In this document: piece by piece, positions 7,733-23,232 of the stretch
Layout: each line of letters starts with the position of its first letter
How positions within the stretch are numbered: position 1 is the stretch's first letter
From: an uncultured Methanobrevibacter sp.
Lineage (GTDB): Archaea > Methanobacteriota > Methanobacteria > Methanobacteriales > Methanobacteriaceae
Direction: 5' to 3'
Length of the DNA stretch: 32,546 nt
Assembly: GCA_902794475.1 (NCBI GenBank)
Contig: CADBHR010000008.1
Location: forward strand, 1 to 32,546
Made by a program: the position numbers and the translations under genes
Notes under the pieces: generated by a model
What the model saw: the letters and a program-made list of their open reading frames with translations, nothing else
The model's database searches: none
Told to the model about the DNA's origin: nothing

Positions 7733-7769
7733 GATTAGTTTTCAAATGCTCTCTCATTTGATTTAAATA
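7733..7769 (+). promoter_or_regulatory. Repair-regulon element plus TATA box, nurA-herA promoter (site 1)
   Basis: TTTTCAAATGCTCTCT occupies 7739-7754, preceded by GATTAG. The TATA-like TTTAAATA (7762-7769) begins 8 nt after the element's last base, predicting a start near 7792, 10 nt before the chosen nurA ATG. The same element lies at 10458-10473, 22938-22953 and, inverted, 22727-22742. In this copy CAAATG is also mirrored by CATTTG (7755-7760), which the other copies do not preserve. Confidence 0.75.
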
Positions 7770-7801
7770 ATTTAATGCTTATAATTATACTTAGTGATAT
7801 T

Positions 7802-8875
7802 ATGTTAAATTCATTGTATGAAAAGGCCATCGCCAAAAGAGGATTCAATTTTGATATCGAACCGACAGCAGATATTGAATCCCAGCTAGAACATAAATGG
7901 TTTGACAGGGCAATCGGTGAAAGCAAAGATGATTTTTCGATTGCCGCAGGTGACGGTAGCTTCAACAAAAAGAAGTTTCTCACCACAAATTTCTGTGCAG
8001 TTGGTGCCGAGTCCATTATTTACGATGGCGAAATTAAAAAAATTGACGATTCGGATATTTTTGATATTCCGCACGTATCCTTTCTGGATGAACTTTTAAG
8101 CAATTATATGGCTATATATGAGTTGAAATGTGCCTTGAGAACACTTAATGATTATAACGTTGACTATTATATGTTTGACGGATCCATTCTTGGGGATTTG
8201 CAGAATGCATTTCCAAGAGGTGCAAAGCTGCCTTTGAAACTTAAGGAACACTTGGATGATTCCCTGCTTGAGGAGTTTCGCTCAAGGCTTAAGGTCAGGC
8301 ATTATGGCCTCTTGTTTCCAGGCATCAGAGATGACTTTAAACTGATGGAAATGCCTAAAAGTGAAGATTCAAACATTCTGAATGAAACCAATCTTCATCT
8401 TGCATCCGTTGAAAAGATAATTCTTTTAAATGAGATTTTGCAGTTCAGAAAAAAAATCATTTCAATTTCTAAAACTTCATCTGACAATGACCTGTTTCAT
8501 TGGAACATTCCGGACATTGCATTTTTGGACAAGTTCACCAAGAAGCAGGGAATGACATTCATAAAGTATAGGCAGGTTCATGATAATGCTGCCTTTCCGT
8601 ATTTCAATGACTTTTTCAAAAGTCTGACTTTTACGGTATTTTATGTTCGTCTGCAGGACAACAAGAATGTTTTGAAAGTGGAATTGCCGTACAGGGCCAC
8701 AAAGGAAGAGGTTTTTGAAATCATCAGAAAGATTAACGTATTGTCGGTTCAGGGCTATCCTTACCTTTTGAACAAGGCTCACAATGATGTTGTGATAACC
8801 GACAGGAACATGAAGGAATTGATGAAAATAGCTAAGATTTACGAGACAACAAATAGGGAAGTGATGTCATGGTAG
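7802..8875 (+). CDS. nurA: NurA 5'-3' nuclease
   Basis: NurA is the nuclease that works with the hexameric HerA translocase to resect DNA double-strand breaks. The protein has 357 residues from ATG 7802, chosen over ATG 7775 because AGTGAT lies just upstream and 7775 touches the TATA-like box. The first catalytic motif AAGDGSFNKKKF carries the metal-binding Asp (about residue 47); FDGSILGDL (about residue 130) is the second conserved Asp region; the C-terminal DVVITDRNMKELMK matches the family end where an Asp/His region is expected. It overlaps herA by 7 nt, a translationally coupled pair as in most archaea. The repair-regulon element lies 48 nt before the start. Confidence 0.85.
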   Translation: MLNSLYEKAIAKRGFNFDIEPTADIESQLEHKWFDRAIGESKDDFSIAAGDGSFNKKKFLTTNFCAVGAESIIYDGEIKKIDDSDIFDIPHVSFLDELLSNYMAIYELKCALRTLNDYNVDYYMFDGSILGDLQNAFPRGAKLPLKLKEHLDDSLLEEFRSRLKVRHYGLLFPGIRDDFKLMEMPKSEDSNILNETNLHLASVEKIILLNEILQFRKKIISISKTSSDNDLFHWNIPDIAFLDKFTKKQGMTFIKYRQVHDNAAFPYFNDFFKSLTFTVFYVRLQDNKNVLKVELPYRATKEEVFEIIRKINVLSVQGYPYLLNKAHNDVVITDRNMKELMKIAKIYETTNREVMSW

Positions 8876-10371
8876 TAGGAATCTGCGTAGGGGAGACTAA
8901 TTTAAACGAAGTAACTTTTATTTCAAATAAAATGCCACAGGTTGGCCAATATGTAACAATAGAATATGATGGAAAAAAGGTATTGGGGATGGTGGAAAAT
9001 CTTGTCAGGGGAAACGATGCATTGAATGTTGATATCAATGACTTCAATGCAATCCAGAAAATCTCCAAAATTGGTGTTGAGGATAACTACATAAGGGGAA
9101 AGGTCAAAATACTTGGAGATGTCAATGATGATTTGAAGCTTCCAAGAACTCCTGTGCTTCCCGGAACAGAAATCCAGCTTGCTGATGCAGATATGTTGAA
9201 TGAAATATTCAAGGTAAAAAATCCAATCAAACTTGGATCATTAGTCAATCAAAGTGAAGTGGACGTGAATGTTGATGCTAATCCAATACTCTCAAGACAT
9301 TTGGCAATTCTTGCAATGACTGGAGCGGGCAAATCAAACACGGTATCAGTTCTGATTGACCAATTGCTGTCATATCATGTGCCTGTATTCGTATTTGATA
9401 TGCATGGGGAGTATAAGGGAGCAGAATTCCCAAACGGTAATGTCAATGTGATAAAGCCTAAAATCAATCCGAAATACATGTCATTTACTGAAATCAAAAA
9501 GCTTGTCAATATTCCAAGCAACGGATACATTCAGGAAAGGCACTTCAGAAGAGCATTCAAGGAAGCTAGAAAAAGAATTGAAGACGGCATTGCCCAGGAA
9601 AACAATTTCCTAAAATTGATATATGACATATTGGAAGCCGATTCTGAGGTTGAAGGGTCTGACAAGCAGATTGTGGATGTAATGAATAAAATTGATGATT
9701 CAATGGACAGATATTCCAATCTCTTCGACCAGTACACTGGAAATATATTGACCAGCATCAAGAAGGCTCATGTCAATGTCTTGGACTTAAGTCAGGTTGA
9801 CGAATCGGTTGCAAGTGTGCTTGTAAGCCACATCTTAAGGAATTCACTAAACCGCTCTAAAAAGGCAGCCCATAGTGGAAACAGAGATGAATTGCTTGAA
9901 AACTCTGTATTCTACATTCTTGAAGAGGCTCACATTTTAGCTCCGAACAAACGCGACAGCGATTCCAAACGCTGGATTCAGAGGGTTGCAAGAGAAGGCC
10001 GTAAGTTTGGTTTGGGCCTGTGTCTGGTAAGTCAGTCACCGAAAACAGTTGACCATGATGCATTATCACAGATGAACAACATGATAATCCTTAGGCTTGT
10101 GGAACCTGAAGACCAAAGGCATGTCCAGTCAGCAAGCGAAAGCCTGTCACAGGATCTGGTTAATCAGCTTCCTTCTTTAAATGTTGGGGAAGCTATTGTC
10201 TTGGGTTTGATGACAAAAGTGCCTACTCTTGTCAAGATTGACAAATTCCAGGGACGCAGTCATGGTGATGACATGGATATTGTCTCTTTCTTTAAGGATT
10301 CAGTGAAAAAGGAAGCTGAAGAAATTGAAAGGCAGGAAGATGAGTTGATGGATATGGGATATGATTACTAA
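8869..10371 (+). CDS. herA: HerA DNA-end translocase/helicase
   Basis: HerA is an FtsK/HerA-superfamily ATPase that forms a hexameric ring on DNA ends and drives NurA for end resection with Mre11-Rad50. The protein has 500 residues. The N-terminal HAS-barrel (about residues 1-100) is followed by Walker A MTGAGKSN (about 150-157), DMHGEYKGA, Walker B FYILEEAHILAP (about 345-356), and the RVAREGRKFGLGLCLVSQSP sensor/arginine-finger segment with the downstream QMNNMIILRL. The C-terminus is acidic. The start overlaps the end of nurA, so both products come from the mRNA made at the promoter at 7733-7769. A terminator hairpin formed over the stop codon closes the operon, so mre11-rad50 has its own promoter. 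Confidence 0.92.
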   Translation: MVVGICVGETNLNEVTFISNKMPQVGQYVTIEYDGKKVLGMVENLVRGNDALNVDINDFNAIQKISKIGVEDNYIRGKVKILGDVNDDLKLPRTPVLPGTEIQLADADMLNEIFKVKNPIKLGSLVNQSEVDVNVDANPILSRHLAILAMTGAGKSNTVSVLIDQLLSYHVPVFVFDMHGEYKGAEFPNGNVNVIKPKINPKYMSFTEIKKLVNIPSNGYIQERHFRRAFKEARKRIEDGIAQENNFLKLIYDILEADSEVEGSDKQIVDVMNKIDDSMDRYSNLFDQYTGNILTSIKKAHVNVLDLSQVDESVASVLVSHILRNSLNRSKKAAHSGNRDELLENSVFYILEEAHILAPNKRDSDSKRWIQRVAREGRKFGLGLCLVSQSPKTVDHDALSQMNNMIILRLVEPEDQRHVQSASESLSQDLVNQLPSLNVGEAIVLGLMTKVPTLVKIDKFQGRSHGDDMDIVSFFKDSVKKEAEEIERQEDELMDMGYDY

Positions 10372-10397
10372 TCATATCTTATTTTCACTATTTTTTT
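10358..10397 (+). terminator. Perfect 9-bp hairpin plus T-tract terminator overlapping herA stop
   Basis: GATATGATT (10358-10366) and AATCATATC (10370-10378) pair perfectly with a 3-nt loop; T7 occurs at 10391-10397 and further T runs follow to about 10432. The herA TAA (10369-10371) is in the hairpin. Confidence 0.7.
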
Positions 10398-10451
10398 AAA
10401 GTAATCTATTTTTTTATCCAAAAATTTTTTTCACACTCTCAAATCAATATT

Positions 10452-10490
10452 GATTAGTTTTCAAATGCTCTCTTGGCAAACTATTAAATA
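10452..10490 (+). promoter_or_regulatory. Repair-regulon element plus TATA box, mre11-rad50 promoter (site 2)
   Basis: TTTTCAAATGCTCTCT at 10458-10473, preceded by GATTAG exactly as in site 1. The TATA-like ATTAAATA (10483-10490) starts 9 nt past the element's end plus one, inside a small palindrome ACTATT-AAAT-AATAGT (10480-10495). The predicted start near 10513 gives a leader of about 60 nt to the mre11 ATG. Confidence 0.75.
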
Positions 10491-10544
10491 ATAGTTGATA
10501 ATATACTATTACACATTAAATGCTTAAAATAGTGTTTAAATTGG

Positions 10545-10552
10545 TTATATAC
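10545..10552 (+). promoter_or_regulatory. Second, proximal TATA box before mre11
   Basis: TTATATAC lies about 26 nt before the mre11 region start, which would give a nearly leaderless transcript beginning around 10575. Together with the distal TATA at 10483 it suggests two promoters, one linked to the repair element and one not. Confidence 0.4.
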
Positions 10553-10575
10553 ATAAAATAAAAGAAGGTAATATA

Positions 10576-11817
10576 ATGAAATTTGCACATTTGGCAGACA
10601 CTCATTTGGGTTACCGTCAATACGGATTGTTTGAACGGGAAAAGGACTTTTATGAAGTGTTTGATAAGGTTATTGATAAAATAATTGAAGAAAAAGTAGA
10701 TTTTGTAATACATAGTGGCGACCTATTTGAGACCGCAAGACCTTCACCTATGGCTCTTCTAACCTTCCAGAAAGGTTTGCTGAAGCTGAAAGGTGCAGGA
10801 ATCCCTATGTATGCAATAGCTGGAAATCATGACGTGGTAATGAGAAAAGGTTCCATTCCTCCACATGTTATTTTTAAGAAAATGGGCCTAAAGGTCATCA
10901 GTACCATCAACCCCACCTATATGCATGGGGACATATTCATAGCAGGTCTTCCTTATTATCCTGCCTCACACGGAAAGGCCTTAAAAAGCAAATTGGCCGA
11001 GCTGTCCGAAAAGGCGGCTCATCATGAAAAATCCATTTTGGTCCTTCACCAGGGTATTGACAAATATTTCAGTATGAACTATGAATTGGAGATTGGTGAA
11101 ATTCCGGATAACTTTGATTACTATGCCTTAGGACATATTCACAAATATGTCAATGATGCATATGGTAAAGGAAGACTTGTCTATCCGGGTTCCGGTGAAA
11201 TTTGGAAAACATCCGAATTGCCTGACTACAAAAAGAATGGTAAAGGATTCGTTGTTGTTGATTTTGACGGTTCAAAGCCTATTGTAAAAAGAGTAACTGT
11301 TGATGTTCCTCGTGAATTCATTGATAAAAAGATTAACTATAACGATTTGGAAAGCGGCATTGCAGGCATCAAGGAAATTATTAAAGACTTTGATAAAAAG
11401 CCTATTCTGAAAATCACAATCAATGGTGTTGAATCAGATACAAGTCGGGTGTATGAAATTATTAAGGACGAACTCGGAGATCTTGCTTTGATGATAAGGC
11501 CTACCTTTATAATGGCAGGTGAGGAAATCGAGATTAATGAAATTGAATCCAAAAGATTAGGTCCTGAACAACTCTTGGAAAGCCAGCTTGAAGGATATGG
11601 CAATGGTGATGTCACAACTCTTGCAATTGATTTGTATCATTTGCTTTCAAAAGAGAAACTCGATGAATCCCAGGAGTTAATTAATCAGTACTTTAATGAC
11701 CATTTCTCTTATGAGATTGAAGATGATGGGTTGGAAACTGATGAATTTATAATGGAACAACCTCCAAAAGAAAAAGAGGATATACAGATAACATTTGACA
11801 AGAGGGGTTCAGAATGA
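10576..11817 (+). CDS. mre11: Mre11 double-strand-break nuclease
   Basis: Mre11 is the Mn-dependent exo/endonuclease subunit of the Mre11-Rad50 complex, which tethers and trims broken DNA ends. The protein has 413 residues. All phosphoesterase motifs are present: D8-x-H10 (ADTHLG), D49 (HSGDLFE), G83-N84-H85-D86, H158 (LHQG) and H187-x-H189 (GHIHK). The capping domain follows to about residue 330, and the C-terminus (about 345-400) should bind the Rad50 coiled-coil base. The ribosome site GAAGGTAAT precedes the ATG. It overlaps rad50 by four bases (ATGA), so the two are translated together. Its promoter carries the repair-regulon element (site 2). Confidence 0.94.
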   Translation: MKFAHLADTHLGYRQYGLFEREKDFYEVFDKVIDKIIEEKVDFVIHSGDLFETARPSPMALLTFQKGLLKLKGAGIPMYAIAGNHDVVMRKGSIPPHVIFKKMGLKVISTINPTYMHGDIFIAGLPYYPASHGKALKSKLAELSEKAAHHEKSILVLHQGIDKYFSMNYELEIGEIPDNFDYYALGHIHKYVNDAYGKGRLVYPGSGEIWKTSELPDYKKNGKGFVVVDFDGSKPIVKRVTVDVPREFIDKKINYNDLESGIAGIKEIIKDFDKKPILKITINGVESDTSRVYEIIKDELGDLALMIRPTFIMAGEEIEINEIESKRLGPEQLLESQLEGYGNGDVTTLAIDLYHLLSKEKLDESQELINQYFNDHFSYEIEDDGLETDEFIMEQPPKEKEDIQITFDKRGSE

Positions 11818-14561
11818 TTTTCACAAGATTGATATTAAATAACTTCAAATCACATGAACATAGTGTAATCTCATTTGATAAAGGAATAAGCGTTATTGTT
11901 GGAGAGAATGGTGCTGGAAAATCAACAATATTGGAAGCAATCAGCTTTGCATTATTCAAACAGCACACAGCTAAGAAAATTGATGATCTGGTTAGAAATA
12001 ATGCGAATACAATGTCAATAGAGTTGGAATTCACTTCCAATAATAGGGATTACAAAATTGTTCGCGAAAAGAAATCCAATTTAAAATCATCCCTGTTTAA
12101 GAGAACCTCCTCCGGTGGAGGATATATGCATGTCTGCACAGGCGATAAGGAAGTTGCCAGTGAAATTCGCCAAATTCTTGACATTGATTCAGATTTATTC
12201 CTAAATGCGATTTACATCAGGCAGGGAGAAATTGCAGAATTGGTTGACAAGACCCCTGCTGAGAAAAAACAACTGATTGGTAAGTTATTGGGAATTGATT
12301 CTTTGGAAAAGGCATGGAAGAACCTGCTGCCTTTCATCACTGACTATGAATCTCAGCTTGCTGAACTTAGCGGTAAGTTATATAATTCCGATGAGCTGAT
12401 GGAGAATTATAAGAAGAAAAAAGATGAGCTCGAAAGCCTTAAGAATAGGGGTCATGAACTGGAAGAGCAAATTAATGAAGTTGATGACTTGCTTAAGGAG
12501 ATTTCTGAAAGCAAACGTACTATGGAAAGAGAAAAAGAAATCTATGAAACACAAGTAAACAATTTAGAAATGGAAGAAAAAACATTTGCTAAATTGGAAG
12601 AAGATAAACGCAGAGTTCAGGAAGAATTAGATAAAATCAGGGAAGCAGAGGAAGAAATTGCAAGGCTGGAGAAATTTGTTTCCAAATTGGAAGTTTATCT
12701 TGACTTTGAAAAGTCCGTTACAAGTATTCAAAGACTGAAAATAGATGAAGAAGAAATTCAAGAAAAATTGGATTCAATTGCTGAGCAAAAGAATATTGTA
12801 TCCACTAAAAAAGATGGATATAATAAGTATCTTTCATCTGATGAAGAAATCAACAAGTTGTCTGATCAAAAAAATAACCTTGAAAAAGAGTTGGCAGCAA
12901 TGGCTAAGCTTGAAAAGGATAAAAAGGAATTGTTGAAAAACATTGAGGATGAAAGAAATGACATTGACAAATTTTTCTCAAAATCTAAGGATAACTTATA
13001 TGATTATGGTTTGGACCAAGACAAGTTAGCTAAAATTGATGATTTTAACCATCTTGAACAGTCCACCAACGATTTCATCAATGAAACTTCAGTCAAAATT
13101 GATGATTTGGCAAAGGAAATCATTACTAAAAATGAGGATATTGTCGTATACAATCAGAATATAAAAGCTTGTGAAAAACCTTTAAACGATTTGGAAGGTA
13201 TTGATAATAAATGTCCGGTTTGTAAATCTGACATTGATTCTGATAAGAAAAAAGAATTGACAAATCAGTATACTGGAGAAATTAATGAAAATAAAAAATT
13301 AATAGTCCAAAATGAGGAAGCAGTTCGTTTGCTGACTAAAAATAAAATCAGTTTTGAAGAAAAATTTCAAAAGCTCAGTAATTTGTCTAAAAGCATTATT
13401 GAGTATAAGCAGAAATTTGAGCATTTGCAGAATGAGCTTATCAGATTAAATAAGATGGATGAGGACCTTGAAGGTAAGGAATATGTCAGCAATAAACTTG
13501 GTGAGCTAATTTTACACATTGCAAATAAAAAAGAAGAACGTGAATCATTCAAACAGGACCATGATTCTTATATTCAATCTAAAGGTGCTTTAGAGGTTTT
13601 GGGCAGTGAAACTGAAATCCAATATAAATTGAAACAAGTTCAAAATGAAATCGATAATCATGTGACTAACATCAAATTGGCCATAAATCAAGACCCTCAT
13701 TTGAGTGGTGACATTAGCACTAGTGAACTTAAGAATCGTATTGATGATTTAAAACAGAAAAACGAACAATTCAATCAATTAAAAGGTTTTGTTCAAAATA
13801 AAAATTCATACATGACTCAATTGGATTCAATTAAAGAGGATATTGGTGTTTCAATTAATCAAAAGGACATTATCGAAAATAAGATTAAGGCATCATTGTA
13901 TGATGAGGAAAGGTATGAACAAATTTTGTATAATTTTGAACGCTATGAAAGAAGGAAAAACACTTTCAATGAAGAGCTTTTCGAGATTAAAGGAAGGGCA
14001 AAAGAGTCAATTGTAAGTCTTCAGGATTTGACTGACAAAATAAAGATGGCAACTCAATTCAAACATGAATATGACAATATTGATGAGTATATTGGTATTC
14101 TAAAACATATTCGTGAGTTATACAGTCGTGGAGGTATTCAAAAAGATTTGAGAAATATTTCACGCCCTGCCATACAGAAACATACAAAGGAATACTTTAA
14201 GGAGTTTAATTTCAACTATTCTGATTTGACAATTGATGATGATTATGAAGTGACTGTTTATGGCCCTGAAGGTGAATCATCAATGAGCATGGTGAGCGGT
14301 GGTGAAAAAATTGCCATTGCACTTGCTTTAAGGTTGGGTATTACTCAAGCGATGGCCAATGGTGAATTGGACACTATCCTATTGGATGAGCCTACTATTC
14401 ATTTGGATGCTTCAAGAAGACATGAATTAATCAACTTATTAAAAGAGATGTCTTCATTGCCTCAGATGATTATTGTAACCCATGAAGCTCAACTTGAAAA
14501 TGCGGCTGATAATCTGATAAAAGTCGAAAAAGAGAATGGTATTTCAAAAGTAATAATGTAG
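11814..14561 (+). CDS. rad50: Rad50 ABC-type ATPase with zinc hook
   Basis: Rad50 is the SMC-like ATPase that clamps DNA and controls Mre11. The protein has 915 residues. Walker A GENGAGKST is at residues 30-38. Two long heptad-rich coiled-coil arms (about 170-440 and 500-760) flank the zinc hook C467-PV-C470. The ABC signature MVSGGEKIA (about 826) and Walker B ILLDEPTIHLD (about 855) lie near the C-terminus, followed by the H-loop region IIVTHEAQ. The order and length are normal for the archaeal family, with no break. The start overlaps the mre11 stop. The stop codon is embedded in a strong terminator hairpin shared with the convergent TIR-like gene. Confidence 0.94.
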   Translation: MIFTRLILNNFKSHEHSVISFDKGISVIVGENGAGKSTILEAISFALFKQHTAKKIDDLVRNNANTMSIELEFTSNNRDYKIVREKKSNLKSSLFKRTSSGGGYMHVCTGDKEVASEIRQILDIDSDLFLNAIYIRQGEIAELVDKTPAEKKQLIGKLLGIDSLEKAWKNLLPFITDYESQLAELSGKLYNSDELMENYKKKKDELESLKNRGHELEEQINEVDDLLKEISESKRTMEREKEIYETQVNNLEMEEKTFAKLEEDKRRVQEELDKIREAEEEIARLEKFVSKLEVYLDFEKSVTSIQRLKIDEEEIQEKLDSIAEQKNIVSTKKDGYNKYLSSDEEINKLSDQKNNLEKELAAMAKLEKDKKELLKNIEDERNDIDKFFSKSKDNLYDYGLDQDKLAKIDDFNHLEQSTNDFINETSVKIDDLAKEIITKNEDIVVYNQNIKACEKPLNDLEGIDNKCPVCKSDIDSDKKKELTNQYTGEINENKKLIVQNEEAVRLLTKNKISFEEKFQKLSNLSKSIIEYKQKFEHLQNELIRLNKMDEDLEGKEYVSNKLGELILHIANKKEERESFKQDHDSYIQSKGALEVLGSETEIQYKLKQVQNEIDNHVTNIKLAINQDPHLSGDISTSELKNRIDDLKQKNEQFNQLKGFVQNKNSYMTQLDSIKEDIGVSINQKDIIENKIKASLYDEERYEQILYNFERYERRKNTFNEELFEIKGRAKESIVSLQDLTDKIKMATQFKHEYDNIDEYIGILKHIRELYSRGGIQKDLRNISRPAIQKHTKEYFKEFNFNYSDLTIDDDYEVTVYGPEGESSMSMVSGGEKIAIALALRLGITQAMANGELDTILLDEPTIHLDASRRHELINLLKEMSSLPQMIIVTHEAQLENAADNLIKVEKENGISKVIM

Positions 14562-14587
14562 ACACATTATTACATTTTATTTTTTTT
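14550..14587. terminator. Perfect 10-bp terminator between convergent genes
   Basis: GTAATAATGT (14550-14559) and ACATTATTAC (14564-14573) pair perfectly around AGAC, followed by a T-rich tract to 14587. On the minus strand the same stem is followed by TTTT, so it may stop both rad50 and the gene at 14586-14981. Confidence 0.7.
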
Positions 14588-14981
14588 ACATGGTTTGTGG
14601 TGCGTCTTTGATTGAATCCAGGATGCAATTTGCATTCCATCCAACAATGGTTGCAGCATGTTCTTCCAATACTTCTGGAACTTCTTCTAATCCATATGGT
14701 CTTACAAGAACGATTGGTATGTTATATTTTTCACTGGCATCTAATAAATCATGGAACAGTTCTTTATTGTCATTGTAAAGGCCGGCTAACATGATGATCC
14801 TATCTACTTTTTTGTAAAATTTTTCGCTAGCTGTTGCATATGCGCCTGATACAGATTCTTTCCATCTAAAATCAACTTTTGAGTATAATTTTTCTGTAAA
14901 TTGGCCGTATTCGTTGTTTTTATCAAAACCGTTAGTGATTATTAAATTGTAAATTTTGTCATCCCGTTCATCTTCAAACAT
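14586..14981 (-). CDS. TIR-like (MTH538/DUF1863 family) protein
   Basis: A protein of 131 residues from the ATG at 14981, which has AAGGTG six bases upstream; a GTG at 14990 is inside that ribosome site. The fold pattern is a flavodoxin/TIR-like alternation of strands and helices: IYNLIITNGFD (first strand), VDRIIMLAGLYNDNKE, helix LFHDLLDASEKYN, strand IPIVLVRPYG, and the closing VGWNANCILDSI. The segments IPIVLVRPYG...VGWN are what I associate with the MTH538 TIR-like family, which also includes Thoeris ThsB proteins. In Methanothermobacter, as I recall, MTH538 also lies beside rad50/mre11, supporting orthology. Whether it has NAD hydrolase activity cannot be judged; I do not see an unambiguous catalytic Glu. 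It is convergent with rad50. Confidence 0.6.
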   Translation of the reverse strand: MFEDERDDKIYNLIITNGFDKNNEYGQFTEKLYSKVDFRWKESVSGAYATASEKFYKKVDRIIMLAGLYNDNKELFHDLLDASEKYNIPIVLVRPYGLEEVPEVLEEHAATIVGWNANCILDSIKDAPQTM

Positions 14982-15081
14982 GTCATTCACCTTGCTTTAA
15001 TTATAACTCTTATGGTATAAAAATATTTATTAATTCTAAAAATTAAGAATATATTATTAGAATTATAAGGAATTATTTTTT

Positions 15082-16362
15082 ATGAAAGCGGCAGTAATTG
15101 GATTGGGTGTAGAAGGTAAAAAGGCGGTAAACTCTCTTTTAAACCATGGTTGGGAAGTTTATGCTACTGATTTGAATATTAATGTTGATTTGTCCGGTTT
15201 GGATTTGCCAATGTTGTCCATGAATATGATTGAGGATAAGGAAACTGTTTCAATAGTCGGTGAAAATATCACTGTTGATTTGGGATTCACCAACTCATAT
15301 GCTATTGAAAATTGTGATGCAATAGCAATTAGTCCCAGCATGTTTGGAGGAGCATTTGCCGAAAGATTGCTTGAGGATGGAGAGCTTTTGAGTGATGTTA
15401 TAACCGAACACAGAGACATTTTTACAATTGGAATCACAGGAACCAACGGTAAAACCACCACTGTACACATGCTAAAAAATATTTTAGAGGATGCAGGCAA
15501 GAAAGTATTGGTAGGTGGAAACGGTGGAGGAGGCTTTTCAGGTTATTATGACCTGATTCTTGATGCCCGTGAGGGGGATTATGACATTTTACTTGTTGAA
15601 GTATGTGACATGACCCTTGACTTTGCAAATTATTGCTTTGACTTTGACATGGTCGGATTAACTAATATCGGCAATGACCATATGGACGTTCACAAAACCA
15701 TTGCCAATTATAAGAATTCCCTGGTAAGATTTTTTTCAGATAAAACCATTTTCACATCATTCGATCAGGATTTCAACAGTGACTTTAAGGAAGCTGCTAG
15801 AACTGCAATCCCTTATTTTGCCTATCAGGATGAACTGCAATTGGTTGGAAAATTCAATTTGCTCAATGCAGGCCTCGCCACTGCCATTGCGCGGGAGCTT
15901 AAGGTTCCAAAGGATGTAATCAAATCATCACTTGCGGATTTCAAAGCTGTTGAAGGCAGATTGGATGTTTACAAAATCAATGATGCGGAAGTTTATGTGG
16001 GCAAAACTGACAATTCAGATGCATTGGCATCAGTTTTGTCTGAAAAGAACTTTTATGCACTGTTCATTGGCACCCCTAGACATAATGAAGCGCATAGGCT
16101 GGATATATTGGATGTTGCTGTAAAGTACAATCCAGAAGTGATAGTTCTGTTTCCGGGTTTGGATGATACATTGGACATTGCAATCTATAGGCTTAATTCT
16201 TTAGGTTACATGGGAAATATAATCACTGTAAACACGCTTGATCAGATAATAGAGTTGGTTGCGGAATATTCTCATGAAGATGCTATTCTTATAGGTGGCA
16301 ATGGTCAAGATGTGATTATAGAAATTCAAGAAAGGATTAAACAAATTTCAGAAAAACTATAG
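15082..16362 (+). CDS. Mur ligase family protein, probable pseudomurein-type amino acid/peptide ligase
   Basis: A protein of 426 residues with the three-domain Mur ligase plan: an N-terminal Rossmann-like domain (AVIGLGVEGKKA, residues 3-14), a central ATPase domain with P-loop TGTNGKTTT (about 119-127) and GLTNIGNDHMDVH (the conserved Asn/His region), and a C-terminal domain with EGRLDVYKINDAEVYVGKTDNSDAL (ligase C-terminal motif). Bacterial relatives add amino acids to UDP-linked cell-wall precursors in an ATP-dependent step; in Methanobacteriales such homologues are assigned to pseudomurein peptide synthesis. The exact substrate is not readable. It is slightly closer in layout to MurC/MurD than to CfbE, the F430 synthase, which is the main alternative. 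AAGGA upstream is the ribosome site; divergent from the TIR-like gene. Confidence 0.75.
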   Translation: MKAAVIGLGVEGKKAVNSLLNHGWEVYATDLNINVDLSGLDLPMLSMNMIEDKETVSIVGENITVDLGFTNSYAIENCDAIAISPSMFGGAFAERLLEDGELLSDVITEHRDIFTIGITGTNGKTTTVHMLKNILEDAGKKVLVGGNGGGGFSGYYDLILDAREGDYDILLVEVCDMTLDFANYCFDFDMVGLTNIGNDHMDVHKTIANYKNSLVRFFSDKTIFTSFDQDFNSDFKEAARTAIPYFAYQDELQLVGKFNLLNAGLATAIARELKVPKDVIKSSLADFKAVEGRLDVYKINDAEVYVGKTDNSDALASVLSEKNFYALFIGTPRHNEAHRLDILDVAVKYNPEVIVLFPGLDDTLDIAIYRLNSLGYMGNIITVNTLDQIIELVAEYSHEDAILIGGNGQDVIIEIQERIKQISEKL

Positions 16363-16428
16363 TGAATCAATAACCTTTTTATAATAGTATATGTATATTT
16401 ATTAATGTATTATTATTAGGTGTATTAT

Positions 16429-17613
16429 ATGAGTCAGGGTTGGAGAAAAATTTCTATTGTATTATTTATCGCATTAATTGCTTTAAGTGTTATGCTTGCA
16501 GTATTTGGTTCTGCAAGTACTAATTATACAGCAGAATCCGTAGCTAAAGACTATAGTCTTCCTATTGGCCAATCAATGTTTGAAAATCAATCAATTACAG
16601 GTACTACAAATCCGGTTCAGGTTCCTTTGATTACTAATTTCGGATTTTTAGTTCATCAGCTTCAGGCATTTGATTTACATGGTATTTTAATGGCCTTGTC
16701 AACAGGTGTTGTTCCATTTGATTTTAGCACTGTTGCAGGAAAAGGTATAGATTCCTACGGAAACGTGGTTGATGTTAAAGGTCCTGGGTTTTTAACTTAT
16801 GCTGGGGACAAATTGTCTGTAAAAGAGCCAGATCATTATGTTTGGGCATATAGTGCTCCATCTAAATGGTTGCAAAAAACAAAATCTGGTGTTGATGTTT
16901 ATGATAATGGTAAAAAAGTAAAATCTGTTCCTGCAAGTGAAATTAAGAATTTGGAATATAAAAATGAGTATTATAATGCTTCCACAATTGCTGATTGGTA
17001 TAATTATGATGCACATGAAGGTTCCCAATTCACTTTAGAAAAAGGAATGGTTGGCTTTTCAGATGGAAGAAATAATATCAGTGCTGAAGATGTGCCTAAG
17101 ATATTCGGTCAGGATGTGGTGGACTATGCATCTGAATATCCAACAGGATCTCCTATTTTATTATATGCAGGTAATTACACCCAACAGGCTGGAGAGGCTT
17201 ACGGAACTGATTTAGGTTCCCACCCTGAGTATGGTGATGACATTAGGGAAGTTAATGCTAAACAATTTGTTGATGCATGGAATGGAACCGTTATCCCGCC
17301 TCAAACATCCGCTAGTGGTAAAGATTATGTTTACTTTGAATCTGCCAGTGATGCACAGGCACCTGGTGGAAGTGCAGCACACGGTGTATGTCCATCTGCA
17401 AGAGCTTTAAGGGCAGCTGTTACTTCTGAAGGATTTGACCTTCCAGTTGGTATGTGTTGGGATGAAGATGCAGTTCTATTTGGTTATAACCCTGCACAGG
17501 ACATTACAGTCTATAACAACCATACTTATCCGGTAAAAATTAACATGTGGACTGAGGGTGATGGTACCGGAATGGGTATATATGGTCAAATCGTAAGATA
17601 TGTTCCTAACTGA
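16429..17613 (+). CDS. Exported protein with C-terminal VanW-like region
   Basis: The start is ATG 16429, six bases after AGGTG; an in-frame GTG at 16420 overlaps that ribosome site. The protein has 394 residues. Residues 8-28 form a hydrophobic signal anchor (ISIVLFIALIALSVMLAVFG), so the rest is outside the membrane. The middle (30-300) is rich in Tyr, Gly and Asp and is not recognisable to me. The last 80 residues resemble the VanW family: GGSAAHGVCPSARALRAAV corresponds to the GGGICQ.ST.LYNAA motif, and DITVYNNHTYPVKINMW to the closing strand pair. VanW-like domains occur in bacterial cell-wall proteins of unknown function. A role in the pseudomurein wall fits the neighbouring Mur ligase but is inference. 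Confidence 0.6.
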   Translation: MSQGWRKISIVLFIALIALSVMLAVFGSASTNYTAESVAKDYSLPIGQSMFENQSITGTTNPVQVPLITNFGFLVHQLQAFDLHGILMALSTGVVPFDFSTVAGKGIDSYGNVVDVKGPGFLTYAGDKLSVKEPDHYVWAYSAPSKWLQKTKSGVDVYDNGKKVKSVPASEIKNLEYKNEYYNASTIADWYNYDAHEGSQFTLEKGMVGFSDGRNNISAEDVPKIFGQDVVDYASEYPTGSPILLYAGNYTQQAGEAYGTDLGSHPEYGDDIREVNAKQFVDAWNGTVIPPQTSASGKDYVYFESASDAQAPGGSAAHGVCPSARALRAAVTSEGFDLPVGMCWDEDAVLFGYNPAQDITVYNNHTYPVKINMWTEGDGTGMGIYGQIVRYVPN

Positions 17614-17637
17614 ACATGTCTTTAATTTTCTTTTTTT

Positions 17638-18291
17638 ATGTCAGTTTCAACAATAATTACTGCTGCTGGTAAAAATTCCAGAATGAGGAAAGACCAGATT
17701 TCACGCGGTATGGAATTAACAAATAAACTTATTTTACCGTTCAACAATAAAACGGTTATAGAGACCACCATTGACAATGCATTATCATTGAATATAGATG
17801 AATGCATTGTGGTGCTTGGACATTATGCCCGTGAAATAAGGGAAGCTATTTATGATAATTATAAAAGTGATGTAAAATTCATCGAAAATAATCCTGTTGA
17901 TGTAGGTTTGTCGACCTCGTTATATAATGGTTTATCGAATATCTCTTCTGATTTTGCATTATGCATTACTGCCGATCAGCCTACCGTTTTACCTGAAACT
18001 TTCGAAAAAATGATAGAGGTAAGTCAAACATCTCAAAATCCTTATAGAACAATATCAATTTTGCGCAGAAGAAAAACAGGATTGTTGGATACTGCTGAAG
18101 GCCTTGGCATGCCTTTTGTTGCACCAAGGGAAAACCTGATGGAATATTTGAAAAATGAAGATGATAACCTGAATCCTATATTGAGAAAGATATTTGATGA
18201 TGGGTATGTCTTTTATGGAATAAAAGAAAAAAATGAAAAAGAGTTATTAAATATTAATCATTATGATGATTATCTAAAACTCTTAGATTGA
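17638..18291 (+). CDS. MobA/MocA-like nucleotidyltransferase
   Basis: A protein of 217 residues with the NTP-transferase signature TAAGKNSRM (residues 8-16), the CIVVLGHYAREI strand-helix, GLSTSLYNGL and the metal-binding ITADQPTVLP, as in MobA/MocA-type enzymes that attach CMP or GMP to molybdopterin-like cofactors. Other members are sugar-nucleotide pyrophosphorylases, so the substrate is open. The start codon sits directly after a T-rich tract (17626-17637) with no ribosome site, so translation may be leaderless or coupled to the upstream gene. It converges with the DUF169 gene and overlaps it by 9 nt. Confidence 0.7.
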   Translation: MSVSTIITAAGKNSRMRKDQISRGMELTNKLILPFNNKTVIETTIDNALSLNIDECIVVLGHYAREIREAIYDNYKSDVKFIENNPVDVGLSTSLYNGLSNISSDFALCITADQPTVLPETFEKMIEVSQTSQNPYRTISILRRRKTGLLDTAEGLGMPFVAPRENLMEYLKNEDDNLNPILRKIFDDGYVFYGIKEKNEKELLNINHYDDYLKLLD

Positions 18292-18960
18292 TTCAAGACC
18301 TGAAATGACTTCATCGATTTTGGCCTTGCTGATTCCGACTGTCATTTCATTATCTTTAATGTCAGCCGCTTTTCTTGAGCCGTCACATCCTAATGTGAAA
18401 TTCACGCCGTCGGAAAGATATGGGTTTGAAAATGCATCACCGCATAATGATTGGATACCTGCAAATGAAGGAGTGATTTTCTCACCGGTTTTGTAGACAA
18501 TGCTTTGTGCAAGTTTCATTCCGCCAACAGGTTCGGTAATGACTTGAATGACGTCAGCTTCAAAATCAGCTTCATCTAAAGGTGAATATATTATTCCCCA
18601 ACTAATGTCTTTAATGATTGAAAGTTTGCTGGTTAATTTTTTAGCGGTTTCCAAATCTTGGAATCTTCCTAATGAAAAGTATTTTTCACCGTTTGCTAAC
18701 TTTTCCGGCATGTCCCTAAGTCCTATTGCTCCTGCTCCACCCAGGCATAACTGTTGGTCAATTGTTGAATAGAACTTGTTTCCGAGGGAAGCTTTCCGGA
18801 CCATTTCACAATGCCTTATTTTTTCATCAATTAGATCAATGCCTTCTGGCAAATCATCTTCAGTTTTGATTAATTTCATTGCAACAGGCTTTGCATCAAG
18901 CTTTATTTTACTTTCAATGGCTTCACAATATTTTTTGTTTTTTTCTAAATAATCAGTCAT
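18283..18960 (-). CDS. DUF169 family protein
   Basis: A protein of 225 residues beginning MTDYLEKNKKYCEAIESK, with the family hallmark KPVAMKLIKTEDDLP (residues about 24-38), Cys-containing RHCEMVRKAS and QQLCLGGAGAIGL (about 87-99), and the later SLCGD and LGCDGSRKAAD. DUF169 proteins are widespread in methanogens and anaerobes; conserved Cys residues suggest a metal or redox cofactor, but no activity is established to my knowledge. AAGGTGAT is the ribosome site. It follows the minus-strand nuclease gene on the same strand but with its own spacer of 26 nt, so cotranscription with the helicase-nuclease operon is possible. Confidence 0.75.
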   Translation of the reverse strand: MTDYLEKNKKYCEAIESKIKLDAKPVAMKLIKTEDDLPEGIDLIDEKIRHCEMVRKASLGNKFYSTIDQQLCLGGAGAIGLRDMPEKLANGEKYFSLGRFQDLETAKKLTSKLSIIKDISWGIIYSPLDEADFEADVIQVITEPVGGMKLAQSIVYKTGEKITPSFAGIQSLCGDAFSNPYLSDGVNFTLGCDGSRKAADIKDNEMTVGISKAKIDEVISGLESI

Positions 18961-18986
18961 ACAATCACCTTGGTTAATTATTTGGA

Positions 18987-20219
18987 TTATGGAATTTTAA
19001 TATCTTTTGTTTTAACGCTGTTATTTTTACAAAATGTTCTGAAATCGCATGCATTGCATGTTCTCTCATCTGAATCTGCTTTCCATGCCTCTTGGATTTT
19101 ACAACCTTTTATTTCTTTAATTAAAGAGCTTTCAATCTTAAAAACAACGTTATCAAATTTGTTAAGGGAATCTTTAATCTCTTCATCATCAATATTGATT
19201 ATGCGTATTGATCTGGCAATTTTAAATTCTTCACTTAAATTGGGGGCCTTGTCATCTTCGCTCCAATTCATGATCAGTTCAACGTCGCTGGCAAATTTTC
19301 CATAGTCGATTGCATTGTCAGTCATGTCATGTGCGATTTCCTCCTGAATTAAAATCAGGTCCTCCTTTGAAGGTACAAGTTCATTTAGATAAAATATTAT
19401 GCCTGCAAAAATGGGTTTTGCATCCTCCTGTTGACTTCTAAGCCATGAATATGTTAATATTTGCTGCTTATGATTTTCCCAGGGGTTGTTGAATTTATTG
19501 TTGCTTATTTCGGGAGGCCTTTTCATGCCCTTATAATCAATTATGATTTCATACTCATCGCCATGTGAATAATTGGATATTTTCTTGCGAAATTCAGGGT
19601 CTTTTTTAAGAAATTCGATGATTTTATTATTATAGTTATCCAAATTACTCTGATTGATGTTCTTGTTGATTTTCATGGAACTCAAAACATCCACTACACC
19701 ATTGATTCCATAATAATTGGATCTGCTAATCTTCTCATCGTAGTTAGGCATATTCCTAATCCCTTTTATCAGAAGCTCTGTGGAATCAATCAAAGGAAAG
19801 AGATGAGGTCCCCAAACATTAATTGCCTTTTCAGCCCTTGCACTGGCTAATTTCTTATGGTCGTGCTCGTTTAAATCCTCAAAAGACAATTCACTGTTCA
19901 ATAAACTGTAGAACAAGTCCTCATCATAAGGGTATAGGCCATCCACTTGCAATCTTATGTCAATCATATCCTCAATAGGTCGGATATCGTTTTTCCAATT
20001 CCAAGGGAATTGCTTCTTGTCGGAATCCCATTGAAGATAGGCTTCTTCCATCACTCCATGAATGAACTCTCCAAACCATCTCTGGACAGGTTTAGAAGGG
20101 GGAAGAGTGCCCTTATTCTGATATCGGTATTGCAGATTGCATGTTAAAAAGGACAATAGGTCTCCAGTCAGGCTGTACTCTGGAATCATGTATGCTTTTG
20201 ATCTTGATGGTAATTTCAT
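18987..20219 (-). CDS. PD-(D/E)XK nuclease with Fe-S cluster (Cas4/AddB-like), partner of UvrD-type helicase
   Basis: A protein of 410 residues. Cysteines C27, C388, C391 and C397 have the Cas4/AddB/Dna2 arrangement (one N-terminal, CxxCx5C at the end) for a 4Fe-4S cluster that pins the nuclease fold. Nuclease motifs are visible in order: GEFIHGVMEEAY (motif I His), GVVDVL (GxxD, about 170), EIIIDYKG (D-x-K, about 227-234) and QILTYSWL (QxxxY). The gene begins 8 nt after the helicase stop, with AGGTGA as ribosome site, so both are one operon. A helicase plus Fe-S nuclease pair resembles bacterial AddAB in composition, though the nuclease is not fused to a helicase-like domain here. Likely role: DNA end resection or repair. 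Defence is the alternative. Confidence 0.75.
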   Translation of the reverse strand: MKLPSRSKAYMIPEYSLTGDLLSFLTCNLQYRYQNKGTLPPSKPVQRWFGEFIHGVMEEAYLQWDSDKKQFPWNWKNDIRPIEDMIDIRLQVDGLYPYDEDLFYSLLNSELSFEDLNEHDHKKLASARAEKAINVWGPHLFPLIDSTELLIKGIRNMPNYDEKISRSNYYGINGVVDVLSSMKINKNINQSNLDNYNNKIIEFLKKDPEFRKKISNYSHGDEYEIIIDYKGMKRPPEISNNKFNNPWENHKQQILTYSWLRSQQEDAKPIFAGIIFYLNELVPSKEDLILIQEEIAHDMTDNAIDYGKFASDVELIMNWSEDDKAPNLSEEFKIARSIRIINIDDEEIKDSLNKFDNVVFKIESSLIKEIKGCKIQEAWKADSDERTCNACDFRTFCKNNSVKTKDIKIP

Positions 20220-20227
20220 TTTTTCAC

Positions 20228-22666
20228 CTATATTAAATAAATCTCATTAAATCCCACATATTTCTCATCCCGGCTCCATCCAAGAGCAACATTAGGGATA
20301 TTGAAATGGTCTTTCTTACGAGGATATCCTTCGATTGCTGAATTAAGGCCAACTAACAATAATACACTTTCAGCTCTTGAAAATGCTACAAAATAAAGGC
20401 GTGTCAAATCGTCAAATGACCTGTCTTTTTCGCTCCTTTGCGATTCTCCAAGTTCACTGAACTGCCGTATGCTGTCTTCAATTGTAATGTTTTTAGGCGG
20501 CTTTTTAGGGAATCTCAGTTTTTGTGTTTTTATATTGTTGTCCCTAAATTTGGAACCCACGTCAACGATCACCAGCGGAAATTCCAATCCCTTTGACTGG
20601 TGGATTGACAGAATGTTTACCCTATCATCCGGCAGAGTCTCAAGAAGGGACTCGTCAATCTGTATTCCTCCTGTTGAAAGGGGTATGAATATATTCCAAA
20701 TGGCCTCCAGGATTGATTCTTTTTCGGCTTGCTTGTTTGCAAAGGATATGTTTGAATAGTATTTGCTGAAAAAACCTGTTTGTGTTATGGATTTTGTGAT
20801 TGCTTCCAGGTAAACAATTCCCTCAACGTCCTCCTGCAGCTCTTCAATCCAGGTGATTAATTTATATGCAAGTTCCATTAAGCTTGCCTTTTTAGGCCAG
20901 TATTTTGTTCCTCGTGGCATTCTATTTTGCCAGTAGAGTACAAACTGACTTAGATTTATAGGTTCATGGGGTTCCGGATTAAGTTTAATATATTCCCGTG
21001 CTCTTACTCTCCATCTTGTCATGGTTACCTTCGCCAGATTTGGAATGGTCTTGTCACTCAGTTGAATTTTGCCTTCAGGGTCAATGCACTCAAGCATCAG
21101 TCCGCAGAATATCTCCACAACCTCAACTTTTTGAAGCTCTATTCCTCTCGGATTGAACACTTCAATAGGCTTTCTCTGTTTTTTCAGATTCCTTCTTAAG
21201 TAATATAATAATGAATTGTTTCCGAATTGTTTTTCCTTTGGTGAATATGATAATATTGCAATATCTGAAGCGGAACCGTATTCGCTGTCTAATTTCAGTG
21301 TTAATCTATCAATGTGTTTTCCTTGCCTTTCTCGCTCTTCATTAATCTGCTGGAATTTGGCAATATCGATTTTTCCATTCAACTGTTTGAAGTAGTCCTC
21401 ATCAAGAACCTTTAGGACTTTTGGCTTAACTTCACCCTCGTTTATCAGTTTTGAAATCAGATTGGCCAATGATTTGGAAAGCATTTCAACATTGTTCCTA
21501 AACATTCCAAGCACAGGCATTTTGTCCTTGTCAAAATCAGGTGCAATGATTTTAGGTTTGTTCTTTACTCTTGCCAACTGATATTCGTCATCTATTTCAA
21601 CAAACTGGTTGCAGTGATTGATGATGTTTTCAGTTGAACGGTAATTTGTTTTTAAATTTATTTCGACCACATCAATTCCCAACTTGTCTTTAACGCGCTC
21701 TTTATAATTGGTAAACAGATCTACTGTTGCCCCTCTGAATCTGTAAAGTGATTGGTCGTCATCGCCTACAACGGTAATGTTTCCATTATTTTTCAGGGCG
21801 GATTTGGCAATTGTAAAGTAGATGTCCTCCTGAATAAGGTTAGTGTCCTGATACTCGTCAATTAATACGATTCTGATATTATCAAGGAATAAATCGAGTT
21901 TATCATGTTTGAGTAAGTCTAAGAATCTTGATTCTAGCATTGCAAAATCCATTGTATTCCTTCTGATTAGGATGTTTTCATATTCCTGTATGCAATCAAG
22001 GATTACGCACATGCCTTTATCGCTTTCAAATTCCTCATATAATTTTTCCATTTCAATCTGGTCGTGAAAAATTCTGTCTTTAATTTCAAGCAAGATTCCA
22101 CTCATTTTTGATGGCTCATCAAGTTTTTCCAAACCAGTTAATCTTTTAAGACATTCCTGCAGATTTTCATCCTTATATCGGTCATTTTCACTAAGTATCT
22201 TTATCATTGCGGAATTTGAAACAAAGTTTTCAATTATGATTGGATGATTTGTTCCGGGTTCCTTGTGTTGTCTCATAATTTCTTCAGCTAATTTATCAGT
22301 TGTACCAACTTGAATTTGATTGAAATCTATTTTAGCTATTCTTTCAAAGATTTCAAAGTCATCTGATTCGTCTATTATGTGGTTTTTAATTTCATCTCCC
22401 CATCCTAAGATTCTGGAATATAACTCTTCAGCGGCCTTTTTGGTGAAGGTTGTTGCCAGTATCTCATCGGGATGAATGTCGTCGACAAAAATGAATTTCA
22501 ATATTTTAAGCACCATTACGGTTGTTTTACCACTTCCAGGGCCTGCAACTAAGAACAATGACTGATTGGGTTGGGATAAAATAGCGTTTTTTTGGTCTTC
22601 ATTTGAGGAAATGTCTCTTTCAAGAACATTCACTACAATCTCTTCAAATTCTTCATTTGAAATCAT
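20228..22666 (-). CDS. UvrD/Rep-type superfamily 1 DNA helicase
   Basis: A protein of 812 residues with the full SF1A motif set: Q-motif NEDQKNAI, Walker A AGPGSGKTT (41-49), motif Ia TTFTKKAAEEL (72-82), motif II LIDEYQDTN (268-276), motif III GDDDQSLYRFRGA (301-313), motif IV LKTNYRSTENI, motif V NILSIHQSKGLEFPLV and motif VI YFVAFSRAESVLLL. There is no nuclease domain on the chain, which is instead supplied by the next gene. It translocates 3'-5' on single strands if typical of the family. AGAGGG is the ribosome site. The promoter carries the repair-regulon element in the minus orientation (22727-22748) and a TATA-like box, giving a leader of about 23 nt, which ties the operon to the nurA-herA and mre11-rad50 set. 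Confidence 0.88.
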   Translation of the reverse strand: MISNEEFEEIVVNVLERDISSNEDQKNAILSQPNQSLFLVAGPGSGKTTVMVLKILKFIFVDDIHPDEILATTFTKKAAEELYSRILGWGDEIKNHIIDESDDFEIFERIAKIDFNQIQVGTTDKLAEEIMRQHKEPGTNHPIIIENFVSNSAMIKILSENDRYKDENLQECLKRLTGLEKLDEPSKMSGILLEIKDRIFHDQIEMEKLYEEFESDKGMCVILDCIQEYENILIRRNTMDFAMLESRFLDLLKHDKLDLFLDNIRIVLIDEYQDTNLIQEDIYFTIAKSALKNNGNITVVGDDDQSLYRFRGATVDLFTNYKERVKDKLGIDVVEINLKTNYRSTENIINHCNQFVEIDDEYQLARVKNKPKIIAPDFDKDKMPVLGMFRNNVEMLSKSLANLISKLINEGEVKPKVLKVLDEDYFKQLNGKIDIAKFQQINEERERQGKHIDRLTLKLDSEYGSASDIAILSYSPKEKQFGNNSLLYYLRRNLKKQRKPIEVFNPRGIELQKVEVVEIFCGLMLECIDPEGKIQLSDKTIPNLAKVTMTRWRVRAREYIKLNPEPHEPINLSQFVLYWQNRMPRGTKYWPKKASLMELAYKLITWIEELQEDVEGIVYLEAITKSITQTGFFSKYYSNISFANKQAEKESILEAIWNIFIPLSTGGIQIDESLLETLPDDRVNILSIHQSKGLEFPLVIVDVGSKFRDNNIKTQKLRFPKKPPKNITIEDSIRQFSELGESQRSEKDRSFDDLTRLYFVAFSRAESVLLLVGLNSAIEGYPRKKDHFNIPNVALGWSRDEKYVGFNEIYLI

Positions 22667-22711
22667 TTTTTTCCCTCTTGTTAATATAATTTAATTTATG
22701 AACGGTTATCA

Positions 22712-22748
22712 TTAATAAAGTAATTGAGAGAGCATTTGCAAACTAATG
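22712..22748 (-). promoter_or_regulatory. Repair-regulon element plus TATA box, UvrD/PD-(D/E)XK promoter (site 4)
   Basis: Read on the minus strand: ATTAG then TTTGCAAATGCTCTCT (22742-22727), one base different from the other three copies, then 7 nt, then TATA-like TTTATTAA (22719-22712). The predicted start is about 22689, 23 nt before the helicase ATG. Confidence 0.75.
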
Positions 22749-22823
22749 CAGTTAAAAATATTTTTTTATAAAATGATTATTTTTAAATAACATTTATTTA
22801 TAAAAAAAATATAATTTATATTA

Positions 22824-22886
22824 TGGGAGGAAGTTTCTTCCATAATATGCATAAGTTAGAAACAATTTTGTTTCTAACTTTTTTTT
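22824..22886 (+). ncRNA. Candidate ~60-nt small RNA with two hairpins
   Basis: A TATA-like TTTATAAA (22797-22804) predicts a start near 22824. The transcript would contain a first hairpin (GGAAG-TTT-CTTCC, extended by ATATTAT/ATAATAT with a bulge) and a second, perfect hairpin GTTAGAAACA-ATTT-TGTTTCTAAC (22855-22878) followed by T8 (22879-22886), a textbook terminator shape. A 21-codon frame starting ATGGGAGGAAG is also possible (22823-22888), without a ribosome site. Expression is not shown by sequence. Confidence 0.4.
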
Positions 22887-22931
22887 GAAATATTTTTTTT
22901 TCGCTCTTTAATTTTATGTTTAAACTTTGAA

Positions 22932-22968
22932 TATTACTTTTCAAATGCTCTCTGATGAACTTTAAATA
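22932..22968 (+). promoter_or_regulatory. Repair-regulon element plus TATA box, MrfA-like helicase promoter (site 3)
   Basis: TTTTCAAATGCTCTCT at 22938-22953, then 7 nt, then TTTAAATA (22961-22968). The predicted start is near 22990, which leaves a long leader of about 240 nt before the helicase ATG at 23233. Confidence 0.75.
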
Positions 22969-22990
22969 TCATCAAGGTCTAACATAATAA

Positions 22991-23026
22991 ATGTCAATGA
23001 CAAAAGTTTAATTAAAACTTTTTTTT
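22991..23026 (+). other. Six-codon mini-frame followed by terminator-like hairpin in helicase leader
   Basis: At the predicted start an ATG opens MSMTKV-stop (22991-23011). AAAAGTTT-AATT-AAAACTTTT (23002-23023) overlaps its end and continues into T8. This has the outline of a leader with an early terminator. The rest of the leader (23027-23232) shows no gene, only weak hairpins such as ATCTT/AAGAT near 23147-23163. Confidence 0.35.
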
Positions 23027-23232
23027 CAACGATAACCAAGTTTTTAAAAAAGTAAAACCATTAGCACTGGTAAATAATTGCCATGACTGTTGGATGATGT
23101 TGCAGTAAAAAATCTTCCAAAAAAACTATAATTTGGTTTGCGAATCTTCTTCTACAAGATGGGGAGGGATTCAAATTATTATAATTAAAAATATGATTTA
23201 ATTAAAATTGGAACGGAAATTTAGCTGATATT

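Follow-up and report, generated by a model that had tools for sequence, protein, structure and literature searches.

A conserved promoter element upstream of DNA repair genes in Methanobacteriales and the Orc1/Cdc6 paralogue Cdc6-2 as its candidate regulator

The window analysed in this study, a 32,546-nucleotide stretch of an uncultured Methanobrevibacter sp. (assembly GCA_902794475.1, CADBHR010000008.1; contig C8 of the 210 contigs of its genome), carries four copies of an asymmetric element of approximately 20 nt, ATTA(C/G)TTTTCAAATGCTCTC, each upstream of a TATA-like box, and three of them lie at the promoters of host DNA repair genes. The element recurs before repair, replication and mobile genes within the genus and is kept before orthologous repair genes in relatives. 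A regulon defined by this element almost certainly exists, and its genes are probably controlled by DNA damage or replication stress. We favour, with some reserve, the divergent Orc1/Cdc6 paralogue Cdc6-2 as the factor acting at the element, and the full mechanism, in which the element is the Cdc6-2-bound activator site of an SOS-like regulon of Methanobacteriales, seems to us slightly better than evenly supported.

The first-pass annotation of this DNA described a 16-nt element at four promoters, and all four sites were present where it had placed them, with no mismatch to TTTKCAAATGCTCTCT. The element is real, but the conserved block is longer, at approximately 20 nt, and the 16-mer forms its core. 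The resemblance of the upstream flanks, which had also been pointed out, extends to ATTA(C/G) in all four window sites and is part of that block; with their flanks, the four sites read ATTA(C/G)TTT(T/G)CAAATGCTCTCT. Over 143 distinct sites from the fetched loci, the conserved block was A-T-T-A-(C/G)-T-T-T-T-C-A-A-A-T-G-C-T-C-T-C-(T/G), and one written-out form of the element is TTACTTTTCAAATGCTCTC. The element has no dyad and lies immediately upstream of the transcription factor B recognition element (BRE) and the TATA box, the latter starting 9–12 nt downstream of GCTC in 92 of 111 scorable sites genus-wide. Its constant spacing and its occurrence in one orientation mark it as a promoter-proximal regulator site adjoining the BRE on the upstream side. 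The element appears to be undescribed, as literature searches gave no description of it for methanogens. The features of the window are as follows.

7734..7754, forward strand: element ATTAGTTTTCAAATGCTCTCT before nurA-herA; nurA at two other loci (L142, L191) has the same site
7762..7769, forward strand: TATA box TTTAAATA of the nurA-herA promoter, with the genus-wide spacing
7802..8875, forward strand: nurA, start MLNSLYEK as in relatives
8869..10371, forward strand: herA, named from the sequence and the first-pass annotation
10453..10473, forward strand: element ATTAGTTTTCAAATGCTCTCT before mre11-rad50, kept at four other loci (L142, L144, L167, L205)
10482..10490, forward strand: TATA box TATTAAATA of the mre11-rad50 promoter
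10576..11817, forward strand: mre11
11814..14561, forward strand: rad50
18987..20219, reverse strand: PD-(D/E)XK nuclease partner, named from the first-pass annotation
20228..22666, reverse strand: UvrD-type helicase
22712..22719, reverse strand: TATA-like box TTTATTAA of the UvrD/PD-(D/E)XK promoter
22727..22747, reverse strand: element ATTAGTTTGCAAATGCTCTCT before the UvrD-type helicase and PD-(D/E)XK pair, kept at the orthologue in genomes G014 (L091) and G010 (L116) and at two further loci (L171, L215)
22933..22953, forward strand: element ATTACTTTTCAAATGCTCTCT at the left end of a transposon-derived unit
22961..22968, forward strand: TATA box TTTAAATA of the transposon-derived unit
22933..23174, forward strand: IS200/IS605 (TnpB)-type mini-element upstream of the MrfA-like gene, comprising the element promoter and a right-end hairpin at 23142–23174
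23233..26091, forward strand: MrfA/YprA-like helicase (TIGR03817, 734 bits, below the cut-off of that model)

The first-pass annotation found the element before no other gene in the window; the two further matches there, with three mismatches each, were no more than chance would give (1.72 expected), and 6 was never reached in 100 shuffles. An Rfam scan of the window returned one tRNA and no other family. In the 2.27-Mb genome to which the window belongs, the 16-mer had 20 exact sites, 43 at no more than one mismatch and 55 at no more than two, whereas the reversed pattern gave 4. That the element recurs by chance in AT-rich DNA, for which no support was found, is refuted by the shuffle and reversed-pattern controls and can be dismissed for practical purposes. 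The element was present in 102 of the 139 genomes of the family, with control matches nearly nil, and within Methanobrevibacter a genome mostly carries 2–31 copies.

In the window's own genome and two well-assembled relatives (G014 and G010), the element precedes genes for RPA, NurA(-HerA), Mre11(-Rad50), a UvrD-type helicase, UvrA, Hjc, a Hel308-type helicase, Hef, topoisomerase VI B, RfcS, MCM, a MutS-like protein with helix–hairpin–helix motifs, a DinG/YoaA-like helicase, the anaerobic ribonucleotide reductase (RNR) NrdD and a DUF763 protein. The other targets in these three genomes are a PfkB kinase, YdjM, a SocA/Panacea protein, RhuM, tyrosine integrases, TnpB, and uncharacterised proteins of 111 aa and 115 aa (both of unknown family), 618 aa and 62–80 aa, the last with a single transmembrane (TM) segment. 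The common regulator and repair regulon proposed in the first-pass annotation are thus borne out by a genome scan in which the downstream genes were listed, since the element lies before many more repair genes; the regulon is, however, wider than repair, taking in provirus integrases, TnpB, RhuM, Panacea-type proteins, the small membrane protein and products to which no function can be assigned. To sample sites without regard to gene function, the 20-mer was searched for in the genomes of 84,980 species. Among the matches listed, all were in Methanobrevibacter except for one Methanobacteriaceae metagenome-assembled genome (MAG) and one Ureaplasma-labelled MAG, the latter probably reflecting contamination. 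At the 87 readable sites among the matches listed, a replication, repair or RNR gene was downstream in 37 cases, the small-TM gene in 12 and tnpB in 8; for 37/87, P is approximately 3e-25 at a baseline of 5%, the baseline being an assumption.

The uncharacterised targets show several further features. A protein of approximately 111 aa (NW..I-DP-I-FRA-GGW-KT..GLYLDCNKE) is a recurrent target at four loci and others, and neither Pfam, NCBIfam nor PHROGs gave a match to it; its AlphaFold model (predicted local distance difference test score [pLDDT] 66) gave no trustworthy match in fold comparison. A protein of approximately 618 aa without a family match is element-driven at two loci (L212, L011). 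The single-TM protein of 62–80 aa, with the pattern DLRKK..CMVxxVVxAxLLLSxxSV at five loci and others, is the most frequent target and is possibly a damage-induced division inhibitor.

The same genes keep the site across genera and families, as the presence of the element before orthologous genes in related species demonstrates. In other families of Methanobacteriales, the element takes the form TTA(C/G)TTTTCANNNGCTCTC, and diverged elements were found at orthologue promoters where the strict pattern was missing, for example ATTACTTTTCAAATGCTATAGG in genus g14, ATTACTTTTATATTGCTCTC in g19 and ATTTCTTTTCACACGCTCACC in g21 (g- and f-numbers denote genera and families, the latter other than that of the window). 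Of the 152 genomes available for the phylum, 98 contained a generalised pattern, TTASTTTTCANNNGCTCTC, for which the control gave one match overall; it was present in seven of eight genomes of family f2, where it is almost always single, and in three of four of family f3, and was missing from all 20 genomes of genus g18.

The fourth window site, at 22938, differs from the other three. The first-pass annotation assigned all four sites to repair promoters, which holds for the three host promoters; the site before the MrfA-like gene belongs to a remnant of IS200/IS605 type. The unit from 22933 to approximately 23174, of about 230–240 nt, is repeated at two other loci of the same genome (82–87% identity) and at three in related genomes, and its right-hand portion is similar to the 3′ ends of three tnpB loci, including the hairpin ..CTTCTACAAG.. 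of these ends. Like IS200/IS605 TnpB elements, the unit has a right-end hairpin and repeated copies; unlike them, it holds no tnpB and has the host damage element as its promoter. Both unit and element are missing before the MrfA-like gene in G010, the protein of which is 91% identical, and in G014, and in the UvrD/MrfA-like region of these two genomes only the divergent UvrD gene has the element. In all, the MrfA-like orthologues of two Methanobrevibacter genomes and of one g15 genome lacked their own element. The location of the 22938 site in a repeated tnpB-like unit and its absence in relatives thus indicate a transposon-borne copy and rule out a conserved MrfA promoter. The MrfA-like helicase probably acquired element control with the insertion in its own lineage. 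In another genome, two elements approximately 150 bp apart on opposite strands face outward (G018:C34:52107-52287), like those in the UvrD/MrfA intergenic region of the window. A repeat family seen at six loci (L016, L021, L026, L029, L032 and L033), has an IS605-like right end in several copies; most copies start with the variant element TTTTCAAATGCTCCCT, often at contig ends.

Several repeat families of the window's own genome, including that of the fourth window site, carry the 16-mer, and matches in this genome tend to cluster near contig ends, as expected if the 16-mer were a mobile promoter spread by transposons and the link with repair a by-product. Host sites are, however, single-copy beyond the approximately 20-nt element and the TATA box, the same genes keep the site over genera and families without transposon sequence, and no transposon ends were seen flanking the nurA, mre11, RPA and hjc sites; we consider such a by-product very improbable.

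Mobile genes are nevertheless part of the regulon. In IMG/VR, 21 contigs have the element, with an integrase as the next gene in at least 15 and an integrase within approximately 560 nt of the element in two additional contigs. Seven of eight of these integrases tested had a PHROGs match, and the Pfam matches were weak but consistent. TnpB transposons and several of their repeated deletion derivatives also bear the element. Such a distribution would be expected of mobile elements that respond to a damage signal from their host. It also bears on a replication or S-phase regulon, in which the element would time fork genes in the cell cycle and not respond primarily to damage. RPA, RfcS, MCM, NrdD and topoisomerase VI B as targets, together with a candidate regulator that is a paralogue of an origin protein, are consistent with such timing, whereas the UvrA, Hjc, Hef, Hel308, MutS-like and DinG-like targets, as well as the mostly integrase genes in the 21 viral contigs, fit stress sensing better. 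The use of the element by integrases and TnpB thus argues against a plain S-phase regulon, which we regard as unlikely.

The first-pass annotation stated that archaea have no LexA/SOS system and that no described factor was known for the site. To our knowledge, LexA is indeed lacking in archaea, and we know of no archaeal counterpart of derepression triggered by a RecA-type filament. A precedent for a factor exists, however, in Orc1-2 of Sulfolobales, a DNA-damage regulator whose asymmetric site, the DNA damage-responsive element (DDRE) ANTTTC, precedes the BRE (PMC9738581, PMC5817253), and Cdc6-2 can be named as a candidate in Methanobacteriales. Methanobrevibacter carries Cdc6-1, encoded at the origin, and the divergent Cdc6-2, nearly all genomes having both; Cdc6-2 was found at high identity in nearly all of 67 genomes of the genus. 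It was missing or only a fragment in five (G081, G009, G097, G012 and G023), in which the neighbouring mptE was missing too; assembly gaps are thus the simplest reading, and a true loss of cdc6-2 was set aside. Cdc6-2 has an AAA+ domain with the Walker A motif GSCATGKT, a Cdc6 lid and a weak Cdc6_C match; its winged helix is diverged, and YRR and SRGRGKGR of Cdc6-1 are replaced by SYASFNR and TGKGVRGNSR. A single-sequence structure model of Cdc6-2 was poor (pLDDT 41) and was not used.

Besides the Sulfolobales precedent, three lines of evidence connect Cdc6-2 with the element. Firstly, the best-conserved target of the element is the neighbour of cdc6-2: the element-driven small-TM gene converges on cdc6-2, with 335–384 bp between the element and the stop of cdc6-2 at 24 of the 33 loci of the genus, and the same arrangement occurs in g10, g12, g15, g16, g17, g21 and g23 and in families f2 and f3 (the small-TM protein itself was read in the genus and f3; for f2 and g21 the reading covered the position of the element alone). 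Secondly, short Cdc6-2 relatives of approximately 275–290 aa (16 loci, L472–L487), often several per genome in other genera, consist of the AAA+ domain and lid without a winged helix, with a Pfam Cdc6_lid match and no Cdc6_C match. In 15 of 16, all but the g18 copy, an element with 13–17 of 17 positions lies within 50–125 nt of the start; for a 250-nt window taken at random, a score of 13/17 has P 0.0076 each. These relatives might serve as decoys for an Orc1-type regulator or modulate it. Thirdly, lineages that keep the element have a largely constant recognition helix, SY(A/S)(S/T)FNR, and wing, TGKG.RGNSR. These motifs differ in g14 (FGR), g19 (KYHKFNS), g8 (YDR) and g18 (mostly YNR, TGSG), lineages in which an altered element, or none, was found.

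Several observations weigh against Cdc6-2 or against damage control. Damage induction, activation as opposed to repression, and Cdc6-2 as the factor are deduced from sequence, and the replication targets would also suit a cell-cycle regulon. The full-length cdc6-2 promoter is without the element. The genus g18 has Cdc6-2 and no element, and g9 keeps the helix with no strict element match; the lineages with an altered helix mostly have a more divergent Cdc6-2 in general, so that the covariation is imperfect and confounded. Given the divergent proteins and the g9 case, the helix–element pattern is only a correlation. Short Cdc6-2 relatives were also looked for in viral contigs, and no match was obtained. 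The replication origin beside cdc6-1 has five to seven origin boxes TTACACTTGAAATNNANNTCTCT at three Methanobrevibacter loci. The element shares with the origin recognition box (ORB) of Methanobrevibacter (TTACACTTGAAAT..TCTCT) a TTTCA/TGAAA half-site and a CT-rich tail, and differs in having GCTCTC in place of the right half-site. The similarity to the origin boxes is weak, with a column-shuffle P of approximately 0.0035 for the left block only, chosen post hoc, and the whole element was not significant; the case for the element as a variant origin box is correspondingly weak. ACTTTTC of Methanobrevibacter has one T more than ANTTTC, with ACTTTC or AGTTTC at f2 mutS-like promoters.

The same damage regulon might instead be run by another transcription factor, the links with cdc6-2 being a matter of neighbourhood and coincidence. 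The element-free cdc6-2 promoter, the weak likeness to origin boxes and the sequence-based nature of the predicted binding would all accord with this. The 15 of 16 short relatives that are targets, the order-wide adjacency of cdc6-2 to the small-TM target and the recognition-helix pattern speak against it, as does the lack of a classical autoregulated transcription factor among the recurrent targets. A WYL regulator (PF13280) was also rejected: none of the 139 family genomes had a match, whereas the same search gave matches in seven control bacteria. We give another factor a real but clearly minor chance, and retain Cdc6-2 as the leading candidate.

The element resembles the Orc1-2/DDRE system in that an asymmetric site directly precedes the BRE and TATA box, a non-initiator Orc1/Cdc6 paralogue is available, herA, mre11, rad50 and nurA are among the targets, and Orc1 relatives bear the site themselves. 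In Sulfolobus, NQO induces herA-mre11-rad50-nurA (PMC10470591). The two systems differ in that the site here is highly specific and approximately 20 nt long instead of the Sulfolobales hexamer, repair genes form the core in place of pili, DNA import and cell-division genes, and cdc6-2 is not autoregulated, whereas Sulfolobus orc1-2 has the site in its own promoter; moreover, the link with proviruses and TnpB is strong here, in a euryarchaeal order. In content, the regulon is similar to that of LexA/SOS, with repair genes, the single-stranded DNA-binding protein, UvrA, a DinG-like helicase, YdjM, a small membrane protein and proviral genes. The element is, in contrast, non-palindromic, upstream of the core promoter and not an operator of LexA type, and no LexA is proposed, although LexA was not searched for. 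The bacterial WYL-domain damage activators PafBC and DriD (PMC6789036, PMC12340889) share an activator logic for DNA-damage genes, but the WYL domain is absent from the family genomes. A provirus of M. smithii encodes an Orc1/Cdc6 homologue predicted to control the lysis/lysogeny switch, and the vesicle-enriched proteins in the same study include UvrA and an XPF-type helicase-nuclease (PMC12134362).

Considering these results, we propose a scenario in which DNA damage or stalled replication would lead to the binding of ATP-bound Cdc6-2 to the asymmetric 20-nt site, through its winged helix, on the left half TTA(C/G)TTTTCA, and its initiator-specific motif, beside the BRE and TATA box. Bound Cdc6-2 may promote the assembly of TFB and TBP on promoters that are weak by themselves, which would raise the output of repair, recombination and nucleotide-supply enzymes and of the small membrane protein, the latter possibly delaying division. 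Proviruses and TnpB transposons would sense host damage via the same site, and in other genera the element-driven short relatives, which have no DNA-binding domain, would probably tune or block Cdc6-2. Taken as a whole, an order-wide regulon that is run by Cdc6-2, that proviruses and TnpB transposons exploit, and that copies of Cdc6-2 deficient in DNA binding counter or tune is, in our judgement, as likely as not.

The present analysis bears on whether euryarchaea possess a coordinated damage response comparable to bacterial SOS. For methanogens, it defines the site precisely, lists its targets, names a candidate regulator and reveals a link to viruses. If Cdc6-2 is confirmed, an origin protein would have been turned into a damage regulator outside Sulfolobales, which would suggest an ancient or repeated route, and the mechanism, if true, would explain how proviruses of gut methanogens sense when it is time to leave.

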